A stretch of DNA of 64,000 bases from Phycomyces blakesleeanus NRRL 1555(-). Its lineage: Eukaryota > Mucoromycota > Mucoromycetes > Mucorales > Phycomycetaceae. A program made the translations under genes and the position numbers. Under the pieces are notes generated by a model. The model was not told where the DNA came from. It was given only the letters and a program-made list of their open reading frames with translations, and did no database searches. This document shows positions 47,859 to 64,000 of the stretch, piece after piece (position 1 is the first letter of the stretch; each line of letters begins with the position of its first letter). The stretch is taken from positions 162,912 to 226,911 of the forward strand of contig NW_017265165.1 of the NCBI RefSeq assembly GCF_001638985.1, written 5' to 3'.

Positions 47859-48363
47859 AGGGGGTTTCAACAGTTTTGAGGGTTTGACTGTTGGATGTGA
47901 CGGTAGTCTAATTCGAAAAATGATTGGCTGTAATGAATCTCCAAAAAATGAAAATTGAGGATCCAAGCATCGAAAAAAAAAAGGTTAGATATTCCAATGC
48001 CGTGACTTGGCCAAAATTTACAAAATTTTGCTTTTATATGAACTTTGCCATCAATAATACATAAAGTACAAAGTCCAGAACAAGACATAATCAATCTATG
48101 TAAGAGTTTCTATCTTAATACAAAATTATAAAAGTCCAGCTTACTTGTGGGGAATTTGGGCATGGGCACTATAGTTATGAGTATTCTAATCAAGCGTATT
48201 GTACATATGAATTTTGACGTATATGAGAGAAAACATATCAACCAAGAGACATTAATGGTATTCAAAAGTTTTTTTTTTCGATATCGCTTGTTATTGAATA
48301 GTTCTTAAACTACCACTAAATTCAACAGTCAAGCATCTAAAGCTGGTGAAAACCCCTATAAGG
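47859..48363 (-). mobile_element. MITE-like element, left-arm copy, outer terminus broken
   Basis: Mirror of the element at 59544-60054. Its outer terminal repeat starts at AGGGGGTTTC, but the preceding CCTTAC found in the right copy is replaced by unrelated CAAATT, so the palindrome breakpoint falls inside the terminal repeat. Confidence 0.5.
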
Positions 48364-48532
48364 TAAGGTTCTTTGGATTGAGAATCTAACATATTATCAG
48401 ATAATGCTATAATAGTACATATTTTATGAGAGAAGCATAGTTTTACAATCTGGGCATATTTCATCTTATTTCTGAATCATTATTATTTACATTTGAAAAG
48501 GTGATACAGGCAGTATTGAGTTATATGGTGAA

Positions 48533-49000
48533 ATGGTCCAAACGGTTAAAAGAAAAAAGAGAATAGATATCGATCTCCTCTATCATATCCTTGGCCCAAA
48601 TCTTGGCATCTAGCAGCTTGTTCTCTCGAGAAAGATAAAAAAGAAAAAAAAAGTGCTGTGTAAGGATGGTCTTTATTGATTTAATCTTTCGATGTTTATG
48701 TGGATATTTTGATAATTAGTAAGACATTGCTAAGCTATTACCAAGCTGTTGGGATAAACTATGCTTCTTTGGATAATTAATGATGAATAAGAGAGAGAAA
48801 TAGAAATAGATGAATATTGTAGGGGCTGATTGTTACAATCTTTGTGTTTTTCAATTGGTTTCTTTACTAGCTATAAGAAATATATTCTTCTTGCGGCCAC
48901 GACTTGAGCAATCTGTTTACGTAATTGATACAAAAAAATATTTAGAAAGATATGATATGTTTGGGTCAGCTGGAAGTTCGAAGACACACGGAATTAATTA
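48533..49000 (+). repeat. dispersed repeat, left-arm copy
   Basis: This segment has a diverged direct relative at about 53885-54350 in the spacer and an exact mirror at 58907-59374. Shared blocks include CAGCTTGTTCTCT, GAGAAAGAT, TGTGTAAGGATG and GTTTACRTAATTGATAC. The short open frame at 48810-49001 is not supported as a gene. Confidence 0.75.
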
Positions 49001-49313
49001 ATGCACTAATGAAGATTCTTCTATTTATGTGAGCTCTCAATGAAGATAGAGACAGCGAATCTATTTGCTAAGAAGATAATGATCCCTGTCAAAAGTTTAA
49101 TGTTGGATAAGAGTGAAAGAAATGATATAATTTTATAGTAATAGTAAGGCTGCCAAGTAGTCCAGATTCTAGCTTTATGGAGATATCATAAGAATATTCC
49201 ATCAGAAGAGTGAAAAAGAAAAAAGAGGTTAATCTTCAAAAACTTTTAACGAGGTGGCGGTTATTACCTATATGGAATAAAACAATACTCGGACTGGTGT
49301 TTATAATATTAAG

Positions 49314-49390
49314 TGCATGTTAATGCCTAATTGCTTGTCAATGCCTAATTGCGTGGCAATGCCTAATTGAATGTCAATGCTTAATTGCAT
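49314..49390 (+). repeat. short tandem array of an about 18-bp unit
   Basis: Four to five degenerate copies of AATGCCTAATTGCNTGTC occur here and mirrored at 58517-58593. There are no CRISPR features (spacers are absent and the units are contiguous). Confidence 0.85.
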
Positions 49391-49716
49391 ACATGAGATG
49401 AGAAAGGTTAATGAAAGGTCATAAAACTATTGATTTTCTTTAAAGAAAAACTATACCTTTGTATTTATATGTTTTCAGGCATGAGTTGTCAAGTGAAAGA
49501 AGATCGGCTAAACCAAGAATGCTAAAGAAGTTGTATTATTGATTTATTAGAACTTAATAAGTATGATGCCCATTGTTGATACGTGTCTATACATATACAT
49601 ACCTTGCTTGTAAAAGAAAATTCGACCTGATTTTAATACTGAATATCGTATTAAAATATTAATTTATATACTTTTAAAGTATATCCGATAAATCCCAAAA
49701 GTAAAAATAAAGATTT

Positions 49717-50925
49717 TTTTGTCAAGACCTGCGCTTGAAGGCCGATCCACTCAAGTTTACACCCAAGCTTCTCAACAACCTTCATTCCTGCCTACTCGGC
49801 ATGGCATCAAATTTACCATGACGGCAAAGTATCGGTGAAATGCTTTAATGCCAAACTGCTCGGGACAGGTGTCTGAGACACCCAAGTGAACAGCATAGCA
49901 TTTACTTAGGCACCTTAACTTTGCTTCGGGTTCGTCCCTCATGTCCAGTTCTGTTTACCAGAGCGTGGGTTACAAGTATCAAAGTCTAAGCAATGAGGGA
50001 CTTGAAAAGCACAGGGATCATTTCAACAGGAAGCAGTAAAATACAGGCGATTGTACTGGGTAATCTGTCGATTCTGCTGGGAATCTACCTGTATTACCTC
50101 ACGTCCAGGTGCTCAACGAATTTAAAAAACTCTACGCATCCAGGTGATACACCCTTATACTTGCACCTTTCTGTGACAATCTTGACATGCCCCAAAGGAC
50201 AAAATCTGGAGAGCCAATATCCAACGTCCTAAGAAAATAGCATAAAGCTACCTCTGCGTTCCTCAGTCTTCTCCATGTTATGTGCCGCACAACACAGAAA
50301 AAACTGACGTGGATTTCATCCGGCTTTCGCCTTCATATGAGTGGCTCAGGAAGGTCTTTAACGTCCAGTATGCTCTACACTAAGAGCTACTTTCCCTTAC
50401 GGTACTTGTGTTCAGTTGGTTTTTTATAAGTATATTTAGCCTTCGATGAAACTTTTCACCAGGATTAGGGAGTTTGTAAAACAACCCGACTCATCGGAAG
50501 CTACTTAACACAAAGACAAGAACTCAAGACAAGGTGAGGGGATTGCACCCTCCAGTAACCTTTTCCAGGGAGTGAAGGCTACTGACTTGTTGGTATGTCT
50601 GGAAAAGCAGTTCACTAGTTCACAATCCAGAGCAGTCAAAAGACTACTCCGGTTCAAACATTGGAGCTTCTCCATCTCAAACAATAAAGTCCAAGACGGA
50701 ATCCCTTTTGGTTTCTTTTCCACTGCAGTAAATGCAGGTAGAATCGCTCAAAGTACGGACCAATTTTAGGCCATGGTACCTTGAGCGAACTCAATGACTA
50801 GACGCCAAAGAGTGCAGTGCGTTCAATAAAAAAACCAGCATCTCATATTAAGACAAGCCTTATAAATAAGGCGTCTACAATGAGCGAGTTGGAAAAGAGC
50901 CCGGAGACTCACTGTTAAAGACCAT
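49717..50925 (-). rRNA. divergent, truncated 5.8S-LSU rRNA-like gene, left-arm copy
   Basis: Exact mirror of 56982-58190; see that entry for the alignment blocks. Transcription would run leftwards, away from the palindrome centre. Short open frames inside (50505-50723, 49993-50232, 50572-50769) are by-products of rRNA sequence. Confidence 0.75.
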
Positions 50926-52101
50926 GATATACACATTTTGCATGAAAATGTTTACGTATATTCCTTTTGATATATCGTGACCGATAGAATACGAGGTACT
51001 CAGTGACCACTCCAAGAGTAGAGATATAAATAAAAATCGAGTATAAGGTTAATATACTTATTGTGTCAAAGTGTGTGCGCGTGTGCGCGTTTACTTACCT
51101 AGCTGTTAACTGCGAAGGGTGTAAAATACTGAGCTGGTTCTCGGTACACCTCTCCATAAGCATACTTTGAACACTATCAAGAGAATAAAGTAATATAAAA
51201 GTATAAAGTGAGTATGTTAATTGAGTCAAAGTATGTATATATTGACTTACCACTCAGTGGACCATACATGGTATGAAGGCACCATCAAAAGAATGGTGGT
51301 TAACAGCTAAACAGAACTAGAAACTGCAATAGAAAAAAAGAAAACATCAAATCATAGTTAGCGTGTTGATCGTGTCAAAGTATGTGTGTATGTACGCGTT
51401 TACTTACCTAGTAAACAGCAGCGGAGGGCTTGAAAAGTACTTGTGCTAAAAAGCAAGACGGGACGGGACACTGGACACTGTGATAAAATAAAAGAAATGT
51501 CGAATCATAGTTAGTGTATTGATCGTGTCAGAGCGTGTGTGTGTTTGCTTACCTAGCAGATAACTGCGTAGGGTTTAAAAAAGTACTTGTGCTTAAAAGC
51601 AAAACGGCACTGGACACTGGACACTGTGATGAAAGAAAGAAAACATCAAATCATAGTTAGTGTGGTGATCGTGTCAAAGCATCTGTGTGTGTGTATTTAC
51701 TTACCTGGTACATGAACTTGACGTGAAGGACCTCTCCGTGGCTACAGTGGAATGGAAGCTGGGCATAGAAGACAAAAAAAAACATACGCAAGAAAACACT
51801 GTACTGTAGTTAGTATATTGACCGTGTCAAAATTTGTATGTGTCTGTATAATACTTTACCTGCTATTAGACTGGACATCATTTTTGGAACTTAGCTAGAA
51901 ACCGTGTCTGGGGTGCGTTTTCATAATAAATATCAGTATGCACCTTATACGGATAGAAGGATATAGGCATTTAAAGACAATTTTCTTACCGTGTCGGAAA
52001 CCAAGGACCACCGAAAGGAAACCAGGAGGAAGAGGAGGGATAACAGGAAATTGAGAATTGTATCGATTCTTGTATGAAAAAAAATGGGGATGGCGCAGCA
52101 C
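50926..52101 (-). ncRNA. multi-intron non-coding leader, left-arm copy
   Basis: Mirror image of 55807-56981; intron boundaries are those listed there, reflected (first donor near 51989, last acceptor near 51011). Confidence 0.55.
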
Positions 52102-52736
52102 GGAAGGCGTAAAATGCCTATTTTGAATAAATCAAAACAAATTCATATGAAAATTAAATAGTTTCATGTTTTCAGTAAAAGCTCCATGTTTTTTATCGCA
52201 TATTTTTATTGCGTATTTTTTATCGCATATTTCTATCAAGGACCTATTGGTATTATCTAATAGATACATTGAATAGTACCAACACTGAATACATTTGAGT
52301 ATTATCTTGTTTTAGATAACATTTATATTTCTTTGGGGAATATATTTCTATATCTTTATGTTCACACTACTGATAATTATTATTATTATTATTATTATTT
52401 TAAAAAAAAATACCAAGTAAATAAAGAAATTCTCCTTAACATTATAATCACACTTTGTTTTCTTTCGCTTCACAAAGTATCCTGAAAGTCATATAAGTAG
52501 ATAAGAACTACTATTAAGAAAATAATAGCATGTATTTATTAAGCTATTTTTTTTCTATTTAGGCTATTCAGTTTTACATACATATGCAATATCTCTTGTG
52601 AACTACAAACATAATACTCTTTCTTACTCTTGATCAATAAAAACATTGTTATTATAATGTATATTCACATATCCTCGCTAGCATGACTTATTCTTTACAT
52701 AATTATGTCTAGAGCCAAAATTTTAATTATATAAAT

Positions 52737-55168
52737 TTCATGGCAATTGAGACTTGAGTGGTTTGTGTGATAGATTGCTCAAATGCGTAAGAAAAGATAA
52801 TATATACTGATCTACTATAATATCATGTTAGCCTATATATTGTGGATATCAGTCTATTCTCTTGAAAATAATAAGAAAATAAATAGAGAGATGTGTTAGG
52901 ATAGTCTATATTACTTTTATTTTTTTAATGGTTAAATATATATACATTAACAGATAATATAATAATACAGTCAGTAAGATCAACTTCAGCAGTTTACTGA
53001 AATATTTACATTTAAAGTTATCTTAAGATATTAAGACTTGGAGTATAGTATTTACATTTTAACAATATTTCAAGGCTTGTATAGATTATGTACTTTAAAT
53101 CAATTTAATATCTTATACTGATAGAGCCTAAGTATTTATAGACAAGCTTGTGGCACTGTTGGTTTCGGACAAGTACCCGTATTCAATTACCAATACAATT
53201 ATTATGATCGAAACTATTAAATTTTCTCAATAACCTGCTATTAGCATAACTCAGAAAAACTATATATTCCCAAATAAATCAACTCAATAAAAAGCAACTT
53301 TTACACACCTATATTTTCTTTTTCTTTCTTTTCTCTGAGTATTCATCTAAAGAACACTTTTATTTGCTACAAAGTCTATGAATGTTTATCTGATAATCCC
53401 CTTTTTCCTTTTCTAAATGTTTTTTTTACAAACTTCTTACGCCACACCAACATACATAGCACGTCCCACTACTTTCCTACTAATTTATCTGGAATCATTT
53501 GACATTATATTTCTGTGACCTCCGTTTCTCGCCAAATATTGACTACTATCATGTTTTTAATGGCGTTCTTTTTTCTGCTCAAAAGTCTTACTGGAGAACA
53601 ATTTCCAGCAATTTTTTGTTTGTTCTTGACAATATGTAAAATATATTAAGAATAGCATATAAATAGGGCAATAGTATTAAGTGCATCTGCAATATTCAAT
53701 ATATTTACAGCAACAAAGATAATATTTATATACAAGAAGTACAGACTATAAGAAAAGATAAGATAGTAGTTAAAAGATATACAGTTCTGTCTTTATTTCG
53801 CAGGAGTACTTAATATATTGAATCCATGTAAAATTTTGGCTAGAAATTATATTTCTCTTTCTCATGAGACGGGCTGTGTTGGATTGTGTAAAGAAGTGAC
53901 CCAAACAATTAATAGAAAAAAGGAATATGTATCAATCTCCTCTAACAACTCCTTAGCCCTAATATTGGCAATTGGCAGCTTGTTCTCTTGAGAAAGATCA
54001 AAAGAAAATAGAAGTGATGTGTAAGGATGTTCTTTATTGCTTTCATCTTTCAATGTTTATATAGATATTTCGATAATAAATAAAATAGTATAATTAGTAA
54101 GCTATTACTAAGAGATTGGGATAAACTATACTTCATAAAAAAATAAGAGAGAGAAATAGAGGTAGATAGTCATTGTTGGGGTTCATTGTTACAATCCTTA
54201 TGATTTTCAATTGATTGCTGCGCCAGTTGTAACAATCATGCTCTTCCCAAGATCATTACTTAATCAATTGGTTTACATAATTGATACGAAAAGATTTAGA
54301 GATATGGGATATGTTTGGGCCAGCCGAAAATGTGAATATACACGCAACGTGTCACTCACTCTATTTTACATTTTTATTTTGATTCTTCTCATTTATTGTT
54401 TATCATGAATCAAAGATTTAAATCAAAGTTCCAATTGTCTACTATTTTTTTTTCTCTTTCGTTCTCGTTTAACTTAAACTCGTTTAATTGAATATATGCA
54501 TTTCAGAAAAAAAATTAAGAAAATATTGGAAACTAATCAGAAGACTTGTTGATATTGGTGATTTAGTTGGTGCTGCTGCTGCTGTTCCTATTGATATTAT
54601 ATGATTAGTCTTGATGATTTATCAAGAAAAGTGCACAAAAGTAAAACAGCAAGTAAAAGACGAGAGAAGAATAATAAAAGTATATACATATGGAGATATG
54701 GAGGGATTCTTACCTGTTGTATTCTGTGCTTTGATCTTAGAAAACATATTATTGTTCTGATTTTATTAGATGGGCTATATCAGCATTAAATATAATTCAA
54801 AATATGTAGCTAGTTTGATAGGGTATAAGCATCATTACATTTTTTTTGTTAAAATAGTTATAGATATTGTACATTGAAAATAATGTAAAAGCAGAAGGGT
54901 CGAGTAAAGAAAAAAAAAGAACTCGCCAACTAGACTCTGTATCAAAGAGTAATGTCTTTATCAGAGAGAAAGAGAAAAGAAAGAGTATGAATGCATACTA
55001 TTAGAGATCTACAGTAGCTGTAAAATATCTACAATAATCCTTTAAATAATTTTTTTAATGATTTTAATATGATTTCAAAGCAATATAAACTGTAACAGTA
55101 TATACATACTACAGTGTCCGAAAGAAAGGTTTAACAGCTTTATTATTTATCTATAACTTTACTAATAC
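52737..55168. other. central spacer of the palindrome
   Basis: About 2.43 kb of AT-rich sequence present once. It contains the diverged dispersed repeat (about 53885-54350) and homopolymer tracts. No gene, telomere-like array or recognisable replication origin was found. Palindromic rDNAs often keep their origin near the centre, so a role cannot be excluded. Confidence 0.7.
53885..54350 (+). repeat. dispersed repeat, diverged spacer copy
   Basis: Runs in the same orientation as 48533-49000, with many substitutions and indels, showing that this repeat family predates the recent arm duplication or homogenisation. Confidence 0.7.
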
Positions 55169-55806
55169 ATTTATATAATTAAAATTTTGGCTCTAGACAT
55201 AATTATGTAAAGAATAAGTCATGCTAGCGAGGATATGTGAATATACATTATAATAACAATGTTTTTATTGATCAAGAGTAAGAAAGAGTATTATGTTTGT
55301 AGTTCACAAGAGATATTGCATATGTATGTAAAACTGAATAGCCTAAATAGAAAAAAAATAGCTTAATAAATACATGCTATTATTTTCTTAATAGTAGTTC
55401 TTATCTACTTATATGACTTTCAGGATACTTTGTGAAGCGAAAGAAAACAAAGTGTGATTATAATGTTAAGGAGAATTTCTTTATTTACTTGGTATTTTTT
55501 TTTAAAATAATAATAATAATAATAATAATAATTATCAGTAGTGTGAACATAAAGATATAGAAATATATTCCCCAAAGAAATATAAATGTTATCTAAAACA
55601 AGATAATACTCAAATGTATTCAGTGTTGGTACTATTCAATGTATCTATTAGATAATACCAATAGGTCCTTGATAGAAATATGCGATAAAAAATACGCAAT
55701 AAAAATATGCGATAAAAAACATGGAGCTTTTACTGAAAACATGAAACTATTTAATTTTCATATGAATTTGTTTTGATTTATTCAAAATAGGCATTTTACG
55801 CCTTCC

Positions 55807-56981
55807 GTGCTGCGCCATCCCCATTTTTTTTCATACAAGAATCGATACAATTCTCAATTTCCTGTTATCCCTCCTCTTCCTCCTGGTTTCCTTTCGGTGG
55901 TCCTTGGTTTCCGACACGGTAAGAAAATTGTCTTTAAATGCCTATATCCTTCTATCCGTATAAGGTGCATACTGATATTTATTATGAAAACGCACCCCAG
56001 ACACGGTTTCTAGCTAAGTTCCAAAAATGATGTCCAGTCTAATAGCAGGTAAAGTATTATACAGACACATACAAATTTTGACACGGTCAATATACTAACT
56101 ACAGTACAGTGTTTTCTTGCGTATGTTTTTTTTGTCTTCTATGCCCAGCTTCCATTCCACTGTAGCCACGGAGAGGTCCTTCACGTCAAGTTCATGTACC
56201 AGGTAAGTAAATACACACACACAGATGCTTTGACACGATCACCACACTAACTATGATTTGATGTTTTCTTTCTTTCATCACAGTGTCCAGTGTCCAGTGC
56301 CGTTTTGCTTTTAAGCACAAGTACTTTTTTAAACCCTACGCAGTTATCTGCTAGGTAAGCAAACACACACACGCTCTGACACGATCAATACACTAACTAT
56401 GATTCGACATTTCTTTTATTTTATCACAGTGTCCAGTGTCCCGTCCCGTCTTGCTTTTTAGCACAAGTACTTTTCAAGCCCTCCGCTGCTGTTTACTAGG
56501 TAAGTAAACGCGTACATACACACATACTTTGACACGATCAACACGCTAACTATGATTTGATGTTTTCTTTTTTTCTATTGCAGTTTCTAGTTCTGTTTAG
56601 CTGTTAACCACCATTCTTTTGATGGTGCCTTCATACCATGTATGGTCCACTGAGTGGTAAGTCAATATATACATACTTTGACTCAATTAACATACTCACT
56701 TTATACTTTTATATTACTTTATTCTCTTGATAGTGTTCAAAGTATGCTTATGGAGAGGTGTACCGAGAACCAGCTCAGTATTTTACACCCTTCGCAGTTA
56801 ACAGCTAGGTAAGTAAACGCGCACACGCGCACACACTTTGACACAATAAGTATATTAACCTTATACTCGATTTTTATTTATATCTCTACTCTTGGAGTGG
56901 TCACTGAGTACCTCGTATTCTATCGGTCACGATATATCAAAAGGAATATACGTAAACATTTTCATGCAAAATGTGTATATC
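55807..56981 (+). ncRNA. multi-intron non-coding leader upstream of the rRNA-like segment
   Basis: A chain of spliceosomal-type introns: 55919-56000, 56049-56147, 56203-56283, 56355-56429, 56500-56583, 56657-56733 and 56809 to about 56896. They separate exons of only 48-75 nt. Donors are mostly GTAAGT/GTAAGC. Most introns contain TTTGACACRATCA followed by an ACTAAC-type branch site and a pyrimidine-rich CAG end. The exons have stops in all frames and repeat parts of each other (TGTCCAGTGTCC; AGCACAAGTACTTTT). The introns resemble one another more than the exons do. The last exon would run into the rRNA-like segment. A coding alternative is unlikely. Whether it is transcribed is unknown. Confidence 0.55.
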
Positions 56982-58190
56982 ATGGTCTTTAACAGTGAGT
57001 CTCCGGGCTCTTTTCCAACTCGCTCATTGTAGACGCCTTATTTATAAGGCTTGTCTTAATATGAGATGCTGGTTTTTTTATTGAACGCACTGCACTCTTT
57101 GGCGTCTAGTCATTGAGTTCGCTCAAGGTACCATGGCCTAAAATTGGTCCGTACTTTGAGCGATTCTACCTGCATTTACTGCAGTGGAAAAGAAACCAAA
57201 AGGGATTCCGTCTTGGACTTTATTGTTTGAGATGGAGAAGCTCCAATGTTTGAACCGGAGTAGTCTTTTGACTGCTCTGGATTGTGAACTAGTGAACTGC
57301 TTTTCCAGACATACCAACAAGTCAGTAGCCTTCACTCCCTGGAAAAGGTTACTGGAGGGTGCAATCCCCTCACCTTGTCTTGAGTTCTTGTCTTTGTGTT
57401 AAGTAGCTTCCGATGAGTCGGGTTGTTTTACAAACTCCCTAATCCTGGTGAAAAGTTTCATCGAAGGCTAAATATACTTATAAAAAACCAACTGAACACA
57501 AGTACCGTAAGGGAAAGTAGCTCTTAGTGTAGAGCATACTGGACGTTAAAGACCTTCCTGAGCCACTCATATGAAGGCGAAAGCCGGATGAAATCCACGT
57601 CAGTTTTTTCTGTGTTGTGCGGCACATAACATGGAGAAGACTGAGGAACGCAGAGGTAGCTTTATGCTATTTTCTTAGGACGTTGGATATTGGCTCTCCA
57701 GATTTTGTCCTTTGGGGCATGTCAAGATTGTCACAGAAAGGTGCAAGTATAAGGGTGTATCACCTGGATGCGTAGAGTTTTTTAAATTCGTTGAGCACCT
57801 GGACGTGAGGTAATACAGGTAGATTCCCAGCAGAATCGACAGATTACCCAGTACAATCGCCTGTATTTTACTGCTTCCTGTTGAAATGATCCCTGTGCTT
57901 TTCAAGTCCCTCATTGCTTAGACTTTGATACTTGTAACCCACGCTCTGGTAAACAGAACTGGACATGAGGGACGAACCCGAAGCAAAGTTAAGGTGCCTA
58001 AGTAAATGCTATGCTGTTCACTTGGGTGTCTCAGACACCTGTCCCGAGCAGTTTGGCATTAAAGCATTTCACCGATACTTTGCCGTCATGGTAAATTTGA
58101 TGCCATGCCGAGTAGGCAGGAATGAAGGTTGTTGAGAAGCTTGGGTGTAAACTTGAGTGGATCGGCCTTCAAGCGCAGGTCTTGACAAAA
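56982..58190 (+). rRNA. divergent, truncated 5.8S-LSU rRNA-like gene, right-arm copy
   Basis: Blocks line up in order with nuclear 5.8S and 25S/28S rRNA. TCTTTAACAGTGAGTCTCC at the start corresponds to the 5.8S 5' end, and TTGAACGCAC at 57081 to its 3' half. GGAAAAGAAACCAAAAGGGA at 57185 matches the LSU 5' region. CATCGAAGGCTAAATA and ACAAGTACCGTAAGGGAAAG follow near 57461-57517. Domain II follows: GTAAACAGAACTGG and AGTTAAGGTGCC at 57950-58000, then GATGCCATGCCGAGTAGGCA near 58100 and GCGCAGGTCTTG at the end. Spacing leaves no room for ITS2, so 5.8S and LSU would be continuous, as known in Microsporidia. Homology stops near the domain II/III boundary. Several helices look shortened. It could be a functional ncRNA, a selfish element or a decayed paralogue. 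Confidence 0.75.
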
Positions 58191-58516
58191 AAATCTTTAT
58201 TTTTACTTTTGGGATTTATCGGATATACTTTAAAAGTATATAAATTAATATTTTAATACGATATTCAGTATTAAAATCAGGTCGAATTTTCTTTTACAAG
58301 CAAGGTATGTATATGTATAGACACGTATCAACAATGGGCATCATACTTATTAAGTTCTAATAAATCAATAATACAACTTCTTTAGCATTCTTGGTTTAGC
58401 CGATCTTCTTTCACTTGACAACTCATGCCTGAAAACATATAAATACAAAGGTATAGTTTTTCTTTAAAGAAAATCAATAGTTTTATGACCTTTCATTAAC
58501 CTTTCTCATCTCATGT

Positions 58517-58593
58517 ATGCAATTAAGCATTGACATTCAATTAGGCATTGCCACGCAATTAGGCATTGACAAGCAATTAGGCATTAACATGCA
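58517..58593 (-). repeat. short tandem array, mirror copy
   Basis: Mirror of 49314-49390: repeated AATTAGGCATTGNCANGC units. Confidence 0.85.
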
Positions 58594-58906
58594 CTTAATA
58601 TTATAAACACCAGTCCGAGTATTGTTTTATTCCATATAGGTAATAACCGCCACCTCGTTAAAAGTTTTTGAAGATTAACCTCTTTTTTCTTTTTCACTCT
58701 TCTGATGGAATATTCTTATGATATCTCCATAAAGCTAGAATCTGGACTACTTGGCAGCCTTACTATTACTATAAAATTATATCATTTCTTTCACTCTTAT
58801 CCAACATTAAACTTTTGACAGGGATCATTATCTTCTTAGCAAATAGATTCGCTGTCTCTATCTTCATTGAGAGCTCACATAAATAGAAGAATCTTCATTA
58901 GTGCAT

Positions 58907-59374
58907 TAATTAATTCCGTGTGTCTTCGAACTTCCAGCTGACCCAAACATATCATATCTTTCTAAATATTTTTTTGTATCAATTACGTAAACAGATTGCT
59001 CAAGTCGTGGCCGCAAGAAGAATATATTTCTTATAGCTAGTAAAGAAACCAATTGAAAAACACAAAGATTGTAACAATCAGCCCCTACAATATTCATCTA
59101 TTTCTATTTCTCTCTCTTATTCATCATTAATTATCCAAAGAAGCATAGTTTATCCCAACAGCTTGGTAATAGCTTAGCAATGTCCTACTAATTATCAAAA
59201 TATCCACATAAACATCGAAAGATTAAATCAATAAAGACCATCCTTACACAGCACTTTTTTTTTCTTTTTTATCTTTCTCGAGAGAACAAGCTGCTAGATG
59301 CCAAGATTTGGGCCAAGGATATGATAGAGGAGATCGATATCTATTCTCTTTTTTCTTTTAACCGTTTGGACCAT
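58907..59374 (-). repeat. dispersed repeat, right-arm mirror copy
   Basis: Exact mirror of 48533-49000. Confidence 0.75.
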
Positions 59375-59543
59375 TTCACCATATAACTCAATACTGCCTG
59401 TATCACCTTTTCAAATGTAAATAATAATGATTCAGAAATAAGATGAAATATGCCCAGATTGTAAAACTATGCTTCTCTCATAAAATATGTACTATTATAG
59501 CATTATCTGATAATATGTTAGATTCTCAATCCAAAGAACCTTA

Positions 59544-60054
59544 CCTTATAGGGGTTTTCACCAGCTTTAGATGCTTGACTGTTGAATTTAGTGGTAGTTT
59601 AAGAACTATTCAATAACAAGCGATATCGAAAAAAAAAACTTTTGAATACCATTAATGTCTCTTGGTTGATATGTTTTCTCTCATATACGTCAAAATTCAT
59701 ATGTACAATACGCTTGATTAGAATACTCATAACTATAGTGCCCATGCCCAAATTCCCCACAAGTAAGCTGGACTTTTATAATTTTGTATTAAGATAGAAA
59801 CTCTTACATAGATTGATTATGTCTTGTTCTGGACTTTGTACTTTATGTATTATTGATGGCAAAGTTCATATAAAAGCAAAATTTTGTAAATTTTGGCCAA
59901 GTCACGGCATTGGAATATCTAACCTTTTTTTTTTCGATGCTTGGATCCTCAATTTTCATTTTTTGGAGATTCATTACAGCCAATCATTTTTCGAATTAGA
60001 CTACCGTCACATCCAACAGTCAAACCCTCAAAACTGTTGAAACCCCCTGTAAGG
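59544..60054 (+). mobile_element. MITE-like element with about 54-bp terminal inverted repeats
   Basis: The left end reads CCTTATAGGGGTTTTCACC with GACTGTTGAATTTAGTGGTAG further in. The reverse complement of the right end reads CCTTACAGGGGGTTTCAAC with GACTGTTGGATGTGACGGTAG at the same distance. The 511-bp interior is AT-rich without transposase. Size and structure fit a non-autonomous DNA transposon, but no target-site duplication was recognised. Confidence 0.5.
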
Positions 60055-62656: not shown

Positions 62657-63401
62657 AGAAAGAGTAACCAAGTCTATTAGTATTAGCCTTCTGCATGTGT
62701 TTGTGGACTCACGAAAGAGTTGCAAACGAACGTATGGTTTCTTTGGAAATTAATTTACATACCTTATCTAATTTATGAGTAATAAAACAGTAGATATTTT
62801 AAAATAATTATGGCTTTGTTATAAGCTGGGTATCGTATAAGAGTTGAGGTCATGGTGTTTATATCTTTTTTAAACAAGAAGATGGAATAGATCTATGATC
62901 TAATCCATTCGGCGTGATAATTTAGAGTTAGTATTAAGTAACATTATGAATGTTCTATCAGTCTTTAACACAAAATTGTTAGCTAGCCTAAATGCTGCTT
63001 TCCGGGCTCTCGTAATTCAAATACATTATGTCTTTGTATAGCAAAACAATATACAATTAGGGTAATACTTACCACGCTAAATCCAACCATAATCCGATCA
63101 TTAATGTGTATCAATATAACATGCGGCCCAATTCCCTTTATAATCTCTCTCTCTCTTAGACCCTTATTTTCCCAAGATAATTTTTATCATCTTTCTCAGC
63201 ACACGTATACATGCACATATATCTGCTCCTAGTCATAGGTATACATATACGTATTGTGCTTAAAAAAAACAATACAATACAATGTGAATAAGATTACTGA
63301 TATTAAAAAAAAGACAGTGTTTATTATTTATTTACTTATACAGGTGGTGCAAAGTCATTAAAGTGCTTTATATTTTACAATTTGTTTTAATTAAAAACAA
63401 A
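62657..63401. other. AT-rich intergenic region
   Basis: No gene seen. It lies between the 3' ends of the decayed gene (plus) and the repeat-tail gene (minus). Confidence 0.6.
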
Positions 63402-64000
63402 CTACCAACTAGCCATGTACTCGGGAGAAGAACTAGTTTCAGATTGGGGGAGATCTTCAGATACTTGGCTAGGAAGCTCAGTGGAATCATCAGTAGAGCT
63501 GGTAGAGTCAGTGGAGTCAGCAGAGTCAGTGGAGTCAGCAGAGTCAGTGGAGTCAGCAAAGTCAGTGGAGTCAGCAGAGTCAGTGGAGTCAGCAGAGTCG
63601 GTAGAATCGGCAGAGTCGGTAGAATCGGCAGAGTCGGTAGAATCGGCAGAGTCAGTAGAATCGGCAGAGTCAGTAGAATCGGCAGAGTCAGTAGAATCGG
63701 CAGAGTCAGTAGAATCGGCAGAGTCAGTAGAATCGGCAGAGTCAGTAGAATCGGCAGAGTCAGTAGAGTCAGTAGAGTCAGTAGAGTCCTCCTGAGTTCC
63801 GTTCAAGCTGTCGATCTTCTCTCTAATGGCAGATGTGAAGAGCTTCCATTCGTCGGCAGTGGTGTAACTCTCAGTGATTTTCTTGAGGCCAGAAAGCTGT
63901 GCGACAGACTCAGGGTATTCTGCTGAAAGTTTATCGGTGAATGCAGCCCAATGAGCTTCAATGTCATTAAGATCGTATGTCTGGTTGTTTGCCAGCTGAG
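63402..64000 (-). CDS. Ser/Thr/Asp/Ala-repeat tail protein, 3' end only
   Basis: Minus-strand frame open from the window edge to TAG at 63404-63402, so the start is outside. The first visible part is a coherent, partly amphipathic domain (DIEAHWAAFTDKLSAEYPES, TADEWKLFTSAIREKI). Then comes a long hexapeptide repeat of the type STDSAD from 18-bp DNA units, ending in SSPEYMASW. Upstream domain plus serine-rich acidic tail resembles small secreted or wall-associated fungal proteins, but no hydrophobic GPI-type end is present. The minus frame is preferred because only it continues coherently beyond the repeat; the opposite frames in the repeat are mirror artefacts. Confidence 0.65.
   Translation of the reverse strand, partial: QLANNQTYDLNDIEAHWAAFTDKLSAEYPESVAQLSGLKKITESYTTADEWKLFTSAIREKIDSLNGTQEDSTDSTDSTDSADSTDSADSTDSADSTDSADSTDSADSTDSADSTDSADSTDSADSTDSADSTDSADSTDSADSTDFADSTDSADSTDSADSTDSTSSTDDSTELPSQVSEDLPQSETSSSPEYMASW
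63504..63789. repeat. 18-bp coding minisatellite
   Basis: Tandem units GAGTCAGTAGAATCGGCA and the variant GAGTCAGTGGAGTCAGCA, about 16 copies. On the minus strand they encode (S/T/D/S/A/D). Variants are grouped: GTGGAG types at the left and GTAGAATCGG types to the right, showing stepwise expansion. Confidence 0.95.

Follow-up and report, generated by a model that had tools for sequence, protein, structure and literature searches.

A dispersed family of LSU rRNA-derived noncoding sequences that keeps the fold of domains I and II in Phycomyces blakesleeanus

The window analysed here, a stretch of 64,000 nucleotides from contig NW_017265165.1 of Phycomyces blakesleeanus NRRL 1555(-), contains a 1.26-kb LSU-rRNA-like unit (56926..58188, + strand), which belongs to a dispersed family of LSU-derived noncoding sequences that have kept the fold of domains I and II, with some LSU tracts lost or capped. 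New noncoding RNAs have arisen from housekeeping RNAs before, for example from 7SL RNA and tRNA. We tentatively read the unit, hereafter the RNA body, as an exapted LSU-derived noncoding RNA that would mimic the domain I-II assembly intermediate of the large subunit (probability about 0.4), its transcription and its binding of partners being predicted from the DNA. No report of a dispersed RNA resembling LSU domains I-II was found in the literature searched.

When the region 56800-58600 was scanned alone with cmscan, the eukaryotic LSU rRNA family (RF02543) matched positions 57146-58187 on the + strand with 101.1 bits (gathering threshold 50, E = 1.8e-24), and no match was listed in an Rfam run of the whole window at the gathering threshold with the fast filters. 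The match starts at position 1 of the LSU model and stops at the closing helix of domain II, and the bases after it are unaligned. On this match and on the retention of base pairs described below, the segment 57146..58187 (+ strand) is assigned as a homologue of eukaryotic LSU rRNA domains I and II. It is identical to the RF02543 consensus at 373 of 627 displayed positions (59%). A preliminary description of this DNA had claimed an extremely divergent LSU-like segment with its blocks in LSU order and had proposed a search with Infernal and the Rfam LSU model; the search has now given a significant covariance-model match with conserved helix pairing, so the segment is real, the order of its blocks is borne out by an alignment in which helices are retained, and its extreme divergence is confirmed by the identity given above. 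What that description had missed is that the match covers LSU domains I-II only, that the unit is a member of a multi-copy family with an inverted twin nearby, and that an intron-like array lies upstream; the unit is better delimited as about 56926-58188 than as 56982-58190. Among seven further loci scanned, four matched RF02543 at E ≤ 0.01, namely L027 (169.5 bits, E = 7.9e-42), L029 (146.4 bits), L032 (78.1 bits) and L033 (69.1 bits), and the other three, L026, L028 and L031, gave no match to it. The matches of SNORD66, LhrC and SCARNA7 found in 56800-58600 were at chance level (E 5-8.5) and were rejected.

The search of the genome (53.5 Mb in 60 contigs) revealed at least 37 matches to the body, 33 of which extend across all 1209 query bases, with 87-100% identity, and these counts are lower bounds. 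Twenty of the 33 full-length copies are arranged as ten inverted pairs, in which the left copy is on the - strand and the right copy on the + strand with their 5' sides facing each other, and the starts of the two members are 6.8-17.7 kb apart. In the window, the inverted twin of the RNA body is located at 49717..50925 (- strand) and is 100% identical over 1209 bases, its own upstream intron-like array is located at 50982..52148 (- strand), and the left arm of a long inverted repeat (47859..51781) is 100% complementary to the right arm (56126..60048). The two members of the pair at L016 are unlike, having 99.84 and 99.75% identity to the query, and this slight difference speaks against an assembly fold-back at that locus. 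The body is homologous in all 20 of the 20 aligned copies and the flanks diverge; at the 3' end the body is followed by an A-run, beyond which the copies diverge. An ordinary 5.8S (161.6 bits) with spacer-like sequence on its flanks is also present in the same genome, and the host LSU downstream of it reads N in the assembly. Thus, the element is no substitute for the rDNA. Outside the genome, relatives of the element were sought by pattern in viral contigs and none was found there, and patterns for normal LSU likewise gave no match in them. About 494 bases at the palindrome centre of the window (53862-54354), with two further occurrences in L020 and one in L028, represent another repeat. Elsewhere in the window, an array of 9-base units (63454-63813) lies in an open frame with SVESAE-like repeats (stop-to-stop frame 63391-63795, + strand).

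The retention of the fold was measured in two ways. In the model-fitted alignment, 143 of the 167 displayed model pairs are standard pairs, compared with 67.7 (sd 5.8) after shuffling of the partners, and 49 of the displayed pairs differ from the consensus on both sides. Because this alignment is itself fitted to the structure, a sequence-only MAFFT alignment was used for mapping to two reference LSUs, L036 and L038, which are eukaryotic rDNA contigs from bacterial MAG records; a model pair was scored if the mapped columns of the reference LSU form a pair as well, and the null distributions came from 5000 runs of neutral decay down to the identity of the element with the reference LSUs (0.59-0.61). 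Against L036, 101 of 114 pairs are retained (null 71.0, sd 5.2, maximum 90), and against L038, 102 of 113 (null 70.9, sd 5.1, maximum 87), with the residual bias that the pair positions of the element are taken from the model-fitted alignment. The changes on both sides of a pair number 26 versus 8.4 in the null (maximum 21) for L036 and 28 versus 8.2 (maximum 19) for L038, the reference alignment being poor in variable stretches. A neutral rRNA pseudogene, whose helices would decay with divergence, was rejected, since the numbers of retained pairs exceed the maxima of both nulls. As both the pair retention and the double-sided changes lie above neutral decay, we conclude that selection for an LSU-like fold acted on the element while it diverged. 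The closing (root) helix of domain II, which is formed by GTCAAGA (57721..57727) and TCTTGAC (58180..58186, with the A-run next to it) on the + strand, is paired in 138 of 140 cells among the copies. The reference contigs L036 and L038, and likewise L037, which also carries eukaryotic rDNA, are probably contamination of the bacterial MAGs under which they are filed, and a long extra stretch, perhaps an intron, was seen by eye in the LSU of L036.

The preliminary description had further claimed that a 5.8S-like part runs into the LSU part with no ITS2. A spacer of ITS2 length is indeed absent, and the LSU-like 5' end is pairable with the segment just upstream (56984..57145, + strand), which is a candidate 5.8S-like segment holding the 5' strands of an H2-like and an H10-like helix. 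The H2-like helix of 10 bp, formed by GGTCTTTAAC (56984-56993) with GTTAAAGACC (57545..57554), stands at the place of H2 (in L036, CTCTTAACAAT with ATTGTTAAGGG) and is paired in 199 of 200 cells in 20 copies, one of its pairs being seen as G-C, G-U and A-U; it is a hint only, because a helix of equal length arises with p 0.21 when the two stretches are shuffled. The H10-like helix of 13 bp (57119-57131 with 57151-57163, + strand, a short capped loop lying between) stands at the place of H10 and is paired in 245 of 260 cells in the 20 copies. At the level of sequence, RF00002 (5.8S) found nothing in 321 bases even when E values up to 10 were allowed, nhmmer gave no hit between the segment and 5.8S in either direction, and local alignments to three 5.8S sequences were mostly at chance level against a shuffled control; the best of 15 such comparisons, that of L032, had p 0.002, with a register other than that of L028 and L030 (p 0.06-0.07). 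The H2-like and H10-like helices hint at a 5.8S-like part, and the sequence searches lend it no support.

In comparison with both reference LSUs, the stretch after GTACCGTGAGGGAAAG, the GGACCCGAAA region and the GAAAGACTAATCGA and TGATTAGAGG regions are absent from the element, and the CGCTAAG-AGTGTGTAA region, which is the GTPase-associated region, is replaced by a short hairpin (58023..58041, + strand). The sizes of such tracts in the cmscan alignment are 298, 63, 142, 158 and 131 positions in the consensus and 200, 2, 67, 46 and 53 bases in the element, respectively, the last of them being the tract of the hairpin. The shortening of helices that had been noticed from the sequence earlier is supported. 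Moreover, 65 of the 265 highly conserved consensus positions shown differ in the element; within the 5' part, 8 of 201 such positions are altered in the LSU of L036, an ordinary one, and 36 of 132 in the element. Of the parts of a full-length LSU (domains I-VI with the peptidyl transferase and sarcin-ricin regions), the alignment reaches only to the end of domain II. Since tracts of the reference LSUs, including the GTPase-associated region, are missing or replaced, the element by itself cannot function as an LSU rRNA, nor can it yield a 60S subunit. The former reading, an rRNA gene for 5.8S-LSU like that of Microsporidia, is not supported, given where the match stops, the missing tracts and the altered conserved positions. 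It could still be thought that a second ribosome exists, either fragmented or derived from a parasite and with a Microsporidia-like fused 5.8S-LSU, and that the element is one piece of it, which would translate together with other pieces elsewhere; a divergence that keeps structure, as in working rRNA, and the lack of ITS2 would agree with this; however, the same losses and altered positions, together with the intron-like units directly upstream, make it very improbable. The absence of the 14-base sarcin-ricin-loop motif from the whole assembly points in the same direction with weak weight, because the host's own LSU is given as N in that part of the assembly.

Directly upstream of the body there are seven intron-like units of 75-100 bases on the + strand with exons of 48-75 bases between them, and before them lies an upstream, promoter-side region with the first exon (55760..55918, + strand), which is common to other copies. 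The units start with GTAAG or GTAAAG, have CTAAC before the acceptor in four of the seven, and end with CAG in five and otherwise with TAG or GAG. They are located at 55919..56000 (unit 1, GTAAGA...CCCCAG), 56049..56148 (unit 2, GTAAAG...GCCCAG), 56203..56283 (unit 3, GTAAGT...TCACAG), 56355..56429 (unit 4, GTAAGC...TCACAG), 56500..56583 (unit 5, GTAAGT...TTGCAG), 56657..56733 (unit 6, GTAAGT...TGATAG) and 56809..56897 (unit 7, the acceptor of which is TTGGAG here and TTTGCAG in L027, L028 and L031). Each of the 44 matches to the array in the genome is no more than about 3.5 kb away from a match to the body (38 candidates were scored in this count), the promoter-side part sits kilobases upstream of the body at some loci, and the array is missing at the bodies of L032 and L033. 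The array is noncoding: neither the spliced array nor the last exon contains an ATG-started ORF longer than 56 amino acids. In L027, and apparently in L035, tandem units about 26 bases long (GATTTCATGTACAAGGACACCAG-like) stand in place of the middle exons; the window copy has no such units. Antisense to the array, SCARNA7 was matched at L028:6128-6272 (+) with 38.3 bits (E = 2.4e-05), below its gathering threshold of 65, and in the window (56800-56931, - strand) with 10.7 bits; these matches perhaps reflect the composition of the CA-rich introns.

These features also bear on the question of how the family spread. A selfish non-autonomous element, whose LSU-like fold would give its RNA entry to nucleoli or ribosomes and in this way aid its spread via other elements, might account for at least 33 full-length copies, some of them near-identical, and for the A-run at the 3' end, where the homology of L033 stops. 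Nevertheless, this is improbable, since neither a target-site duplication nor a common outer end was seen by eye at the edges of nine copies, the extents of pairwise homology differ among five copies, no ORF of 100 amino acids or more exists between 46701 and 61496, and the intron-like units are retained in seven of the nine copies inspected (they are absent in L032 and L033), so that these are not copies of a spliced RNA. A SINE or another retroposed copy, for which intron loss would be expected, is not supported by the same seven of nine copies.

The variation among the copies was analysed in an alignment of 20 of the 33 full-length copies. Eight of the 33, including the window copy, L003 and L010, were not among the 25 extracted, five of the latter were dropped as almost identical to others (L015, and copies that are the second of a pair), and the window copy is represented by its identical twin. 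In the 12 of these 20 copies that have the full array, with repeats masked, 91 of 1262 sites are variable in the body, 48 of 377 in the exons, 92 of 489 in the introns and 80 of 221 in the downstream stretch 58200-58422; the repeat-like sites set aside were variable at 3 of 13 in exons and 22 of 98 in introns. The body differs from the exons with p 0.0015. The exons are less variable than the introns (p 0.02), as would be expected of a spliced gene, yet the acceptor of intron 5 is lost (CAA) in three copies, L020, L026 and L030. Furthermore, among residues that match both reference LSUs, 57 of 412 are variable in the 20 copies, and 70.1 ± 4.8 were expected in a test stratified by place and nucleotide (p 0.004); without CpG, the numbers are 52 of 396 and 65.3 (p 0.003). 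By region, 57146-57600 shows this effect clearly (p 0.009) and 57640-58190 shows it weakly (p 0.07).

The plateau of low variation in the body was at first taken as a sign of selection, and this was dropped in view of two pairs of loci. L032 and L033 have 1.3 kb of upstream flank in common with 0.2-1.5% difference, and their bodies differ by 5.1%; L034 and L028 show a weaker version of the same pattern (bodies 1.7%, flanks 0.5-1.3%). Exchange between copies, apparently by gene conversion, is evident from these comparisons, and because of it the plateau alone does not prove selection. A gradient of gene conversion would hardly explain the contrast between exons and introns, because they alternate every 50-100 bases. 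The case for selection was instead built on this contrast and on the lower variability of residues shared with rRNA, both of which are less affected by exchange. For the model pairs, one both-sided change was found among the copies, with 0.6 expected by shuffles, and the changes that preserve pairing were in no excess over random pairs (p 0.35); for the predicted fold they were in weak excess over a matched random control (p 0.036). A strong first count of pair preservation, made against a simple expectation, was mostly removed by random pairs of the same letters.

The main rival explanation starts from these data. It assumes a functionless ancient LSU fragment, which was captured near a transcribed or intron-bearing region and spread by segmental duplication as inverted pairs, while gene conversion homogenised the copies, so that the low variation of the body would be due to recombination and not to selection. 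The copying at the DNA level with introns and ragged ends, the signs of exchange between copies and the lack of covariation among them beyond shuffles are all as this explanation would have it, whereas the compensatory changes on both sides of pairs, far more numerous than neutral decay from LSU would give, the lower variability of residues shared with rRNA and that of exons relative to introns are not. We regard it as rather unlikely, and the selfish element and the second ribosome are less likely than either this repeat or the exapted mimic. Selection and homogenisation probably both act on the copies.

That the exapted RNA would be a mimic of an assembly intermediate is what we infer from the extent of the element, its closing root helix and the loss of the parts needed for translation. 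A study in yeast (PMC10191850) describes a native particle consisting of 5.8S, ITS2 and 25S domains I-II, in which Noc1-Noc2 remodels the root helices 2, 25 and 26 and in which Mak16 and Rrp1 as well as Rrp5 are also present; it further describes that truncated pre-rRNA mimics of domain I and domain II form stable LSU precursors if helix 2 can form. In Phycomyces, a putative spliced transcript, probably made by Pol II, would be read from the upstream intron-like array, with the body as its functional product. This RNA would probably bind some of the early 60S assembly factors (Noc1-Noc2-Rrp5, Mak16, Rrp1) or the first LSU proteins, because 5.8S with domains I-II is the module that those factors and proteins recognise in yeast, and LSU assembly might be regulated or titrated through the factors so bound. 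The fuller proposal is a multi-copy, genome-encoded RNA, evolved from LSU rRNA and freed of the parts for translation, that would imitate the 5.8S-domain I-II intermediate by itself; by capturing proteins or early 60S assembly factors it would control ribosome production or parasitise it. We regard this as less likely than not. If true, a ribosomal domain would be able to live outside the ribosome with its fold kept and its translation parts lost, and the family would offer a natural test object for the co-transcriptional checkpoint of LSU assembly. The family is also a caution that another organism is not the only possible source of divergent LSU-like reads in data from fungi.

Several known systems can be compared with the element. 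It is like eukaryotic LSU domains I-II with 5.8S (RF02543, RF00002) in the order of blocks, in 143 of 167 pairs, in the closing helix and in the possible H2-like and H10-like helices, whereas it ends after domain II, lacks internal tracts, has 59% identity to the consensus and is present as dispersed copies. The yeast Noc1-Noc2 pre-60S particle and the mimics (PMC10191850) have an RNA extent of 5.8S and 25S domains I-II with the root helices, which the element matches with its domains I-II and its candidate 5.8S-like segment, but the yeast RNA is either a transient precursor or one designed for expression from a plasmid, and the element is genome-encoded, diverged, multi-copy and known from DNA. 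Fungal rRNA pseudogenes (PMC5555474) are likewise diverged rDNA paralogues beside normal rDNA; they carry C-to-T and G-to-A (RIP) changes, which could probably destroy helices, and have mean p-distances of 0.053-0.161 in 28S. Unlike the pseudogenes described there (PMC5555474), the element keeps its helices through double-sided changes at a divergence of about 40%. The rRNA-derived SINEs (5S-derived and others), in the descriptions available, are likewise repeated noncoding DNA of ribosomal RNA origin, whereas the element keeps its introns, shows no target-site duplication by eye and forms a 1.26-kb unit that ends at a domain boundary of the LSU.
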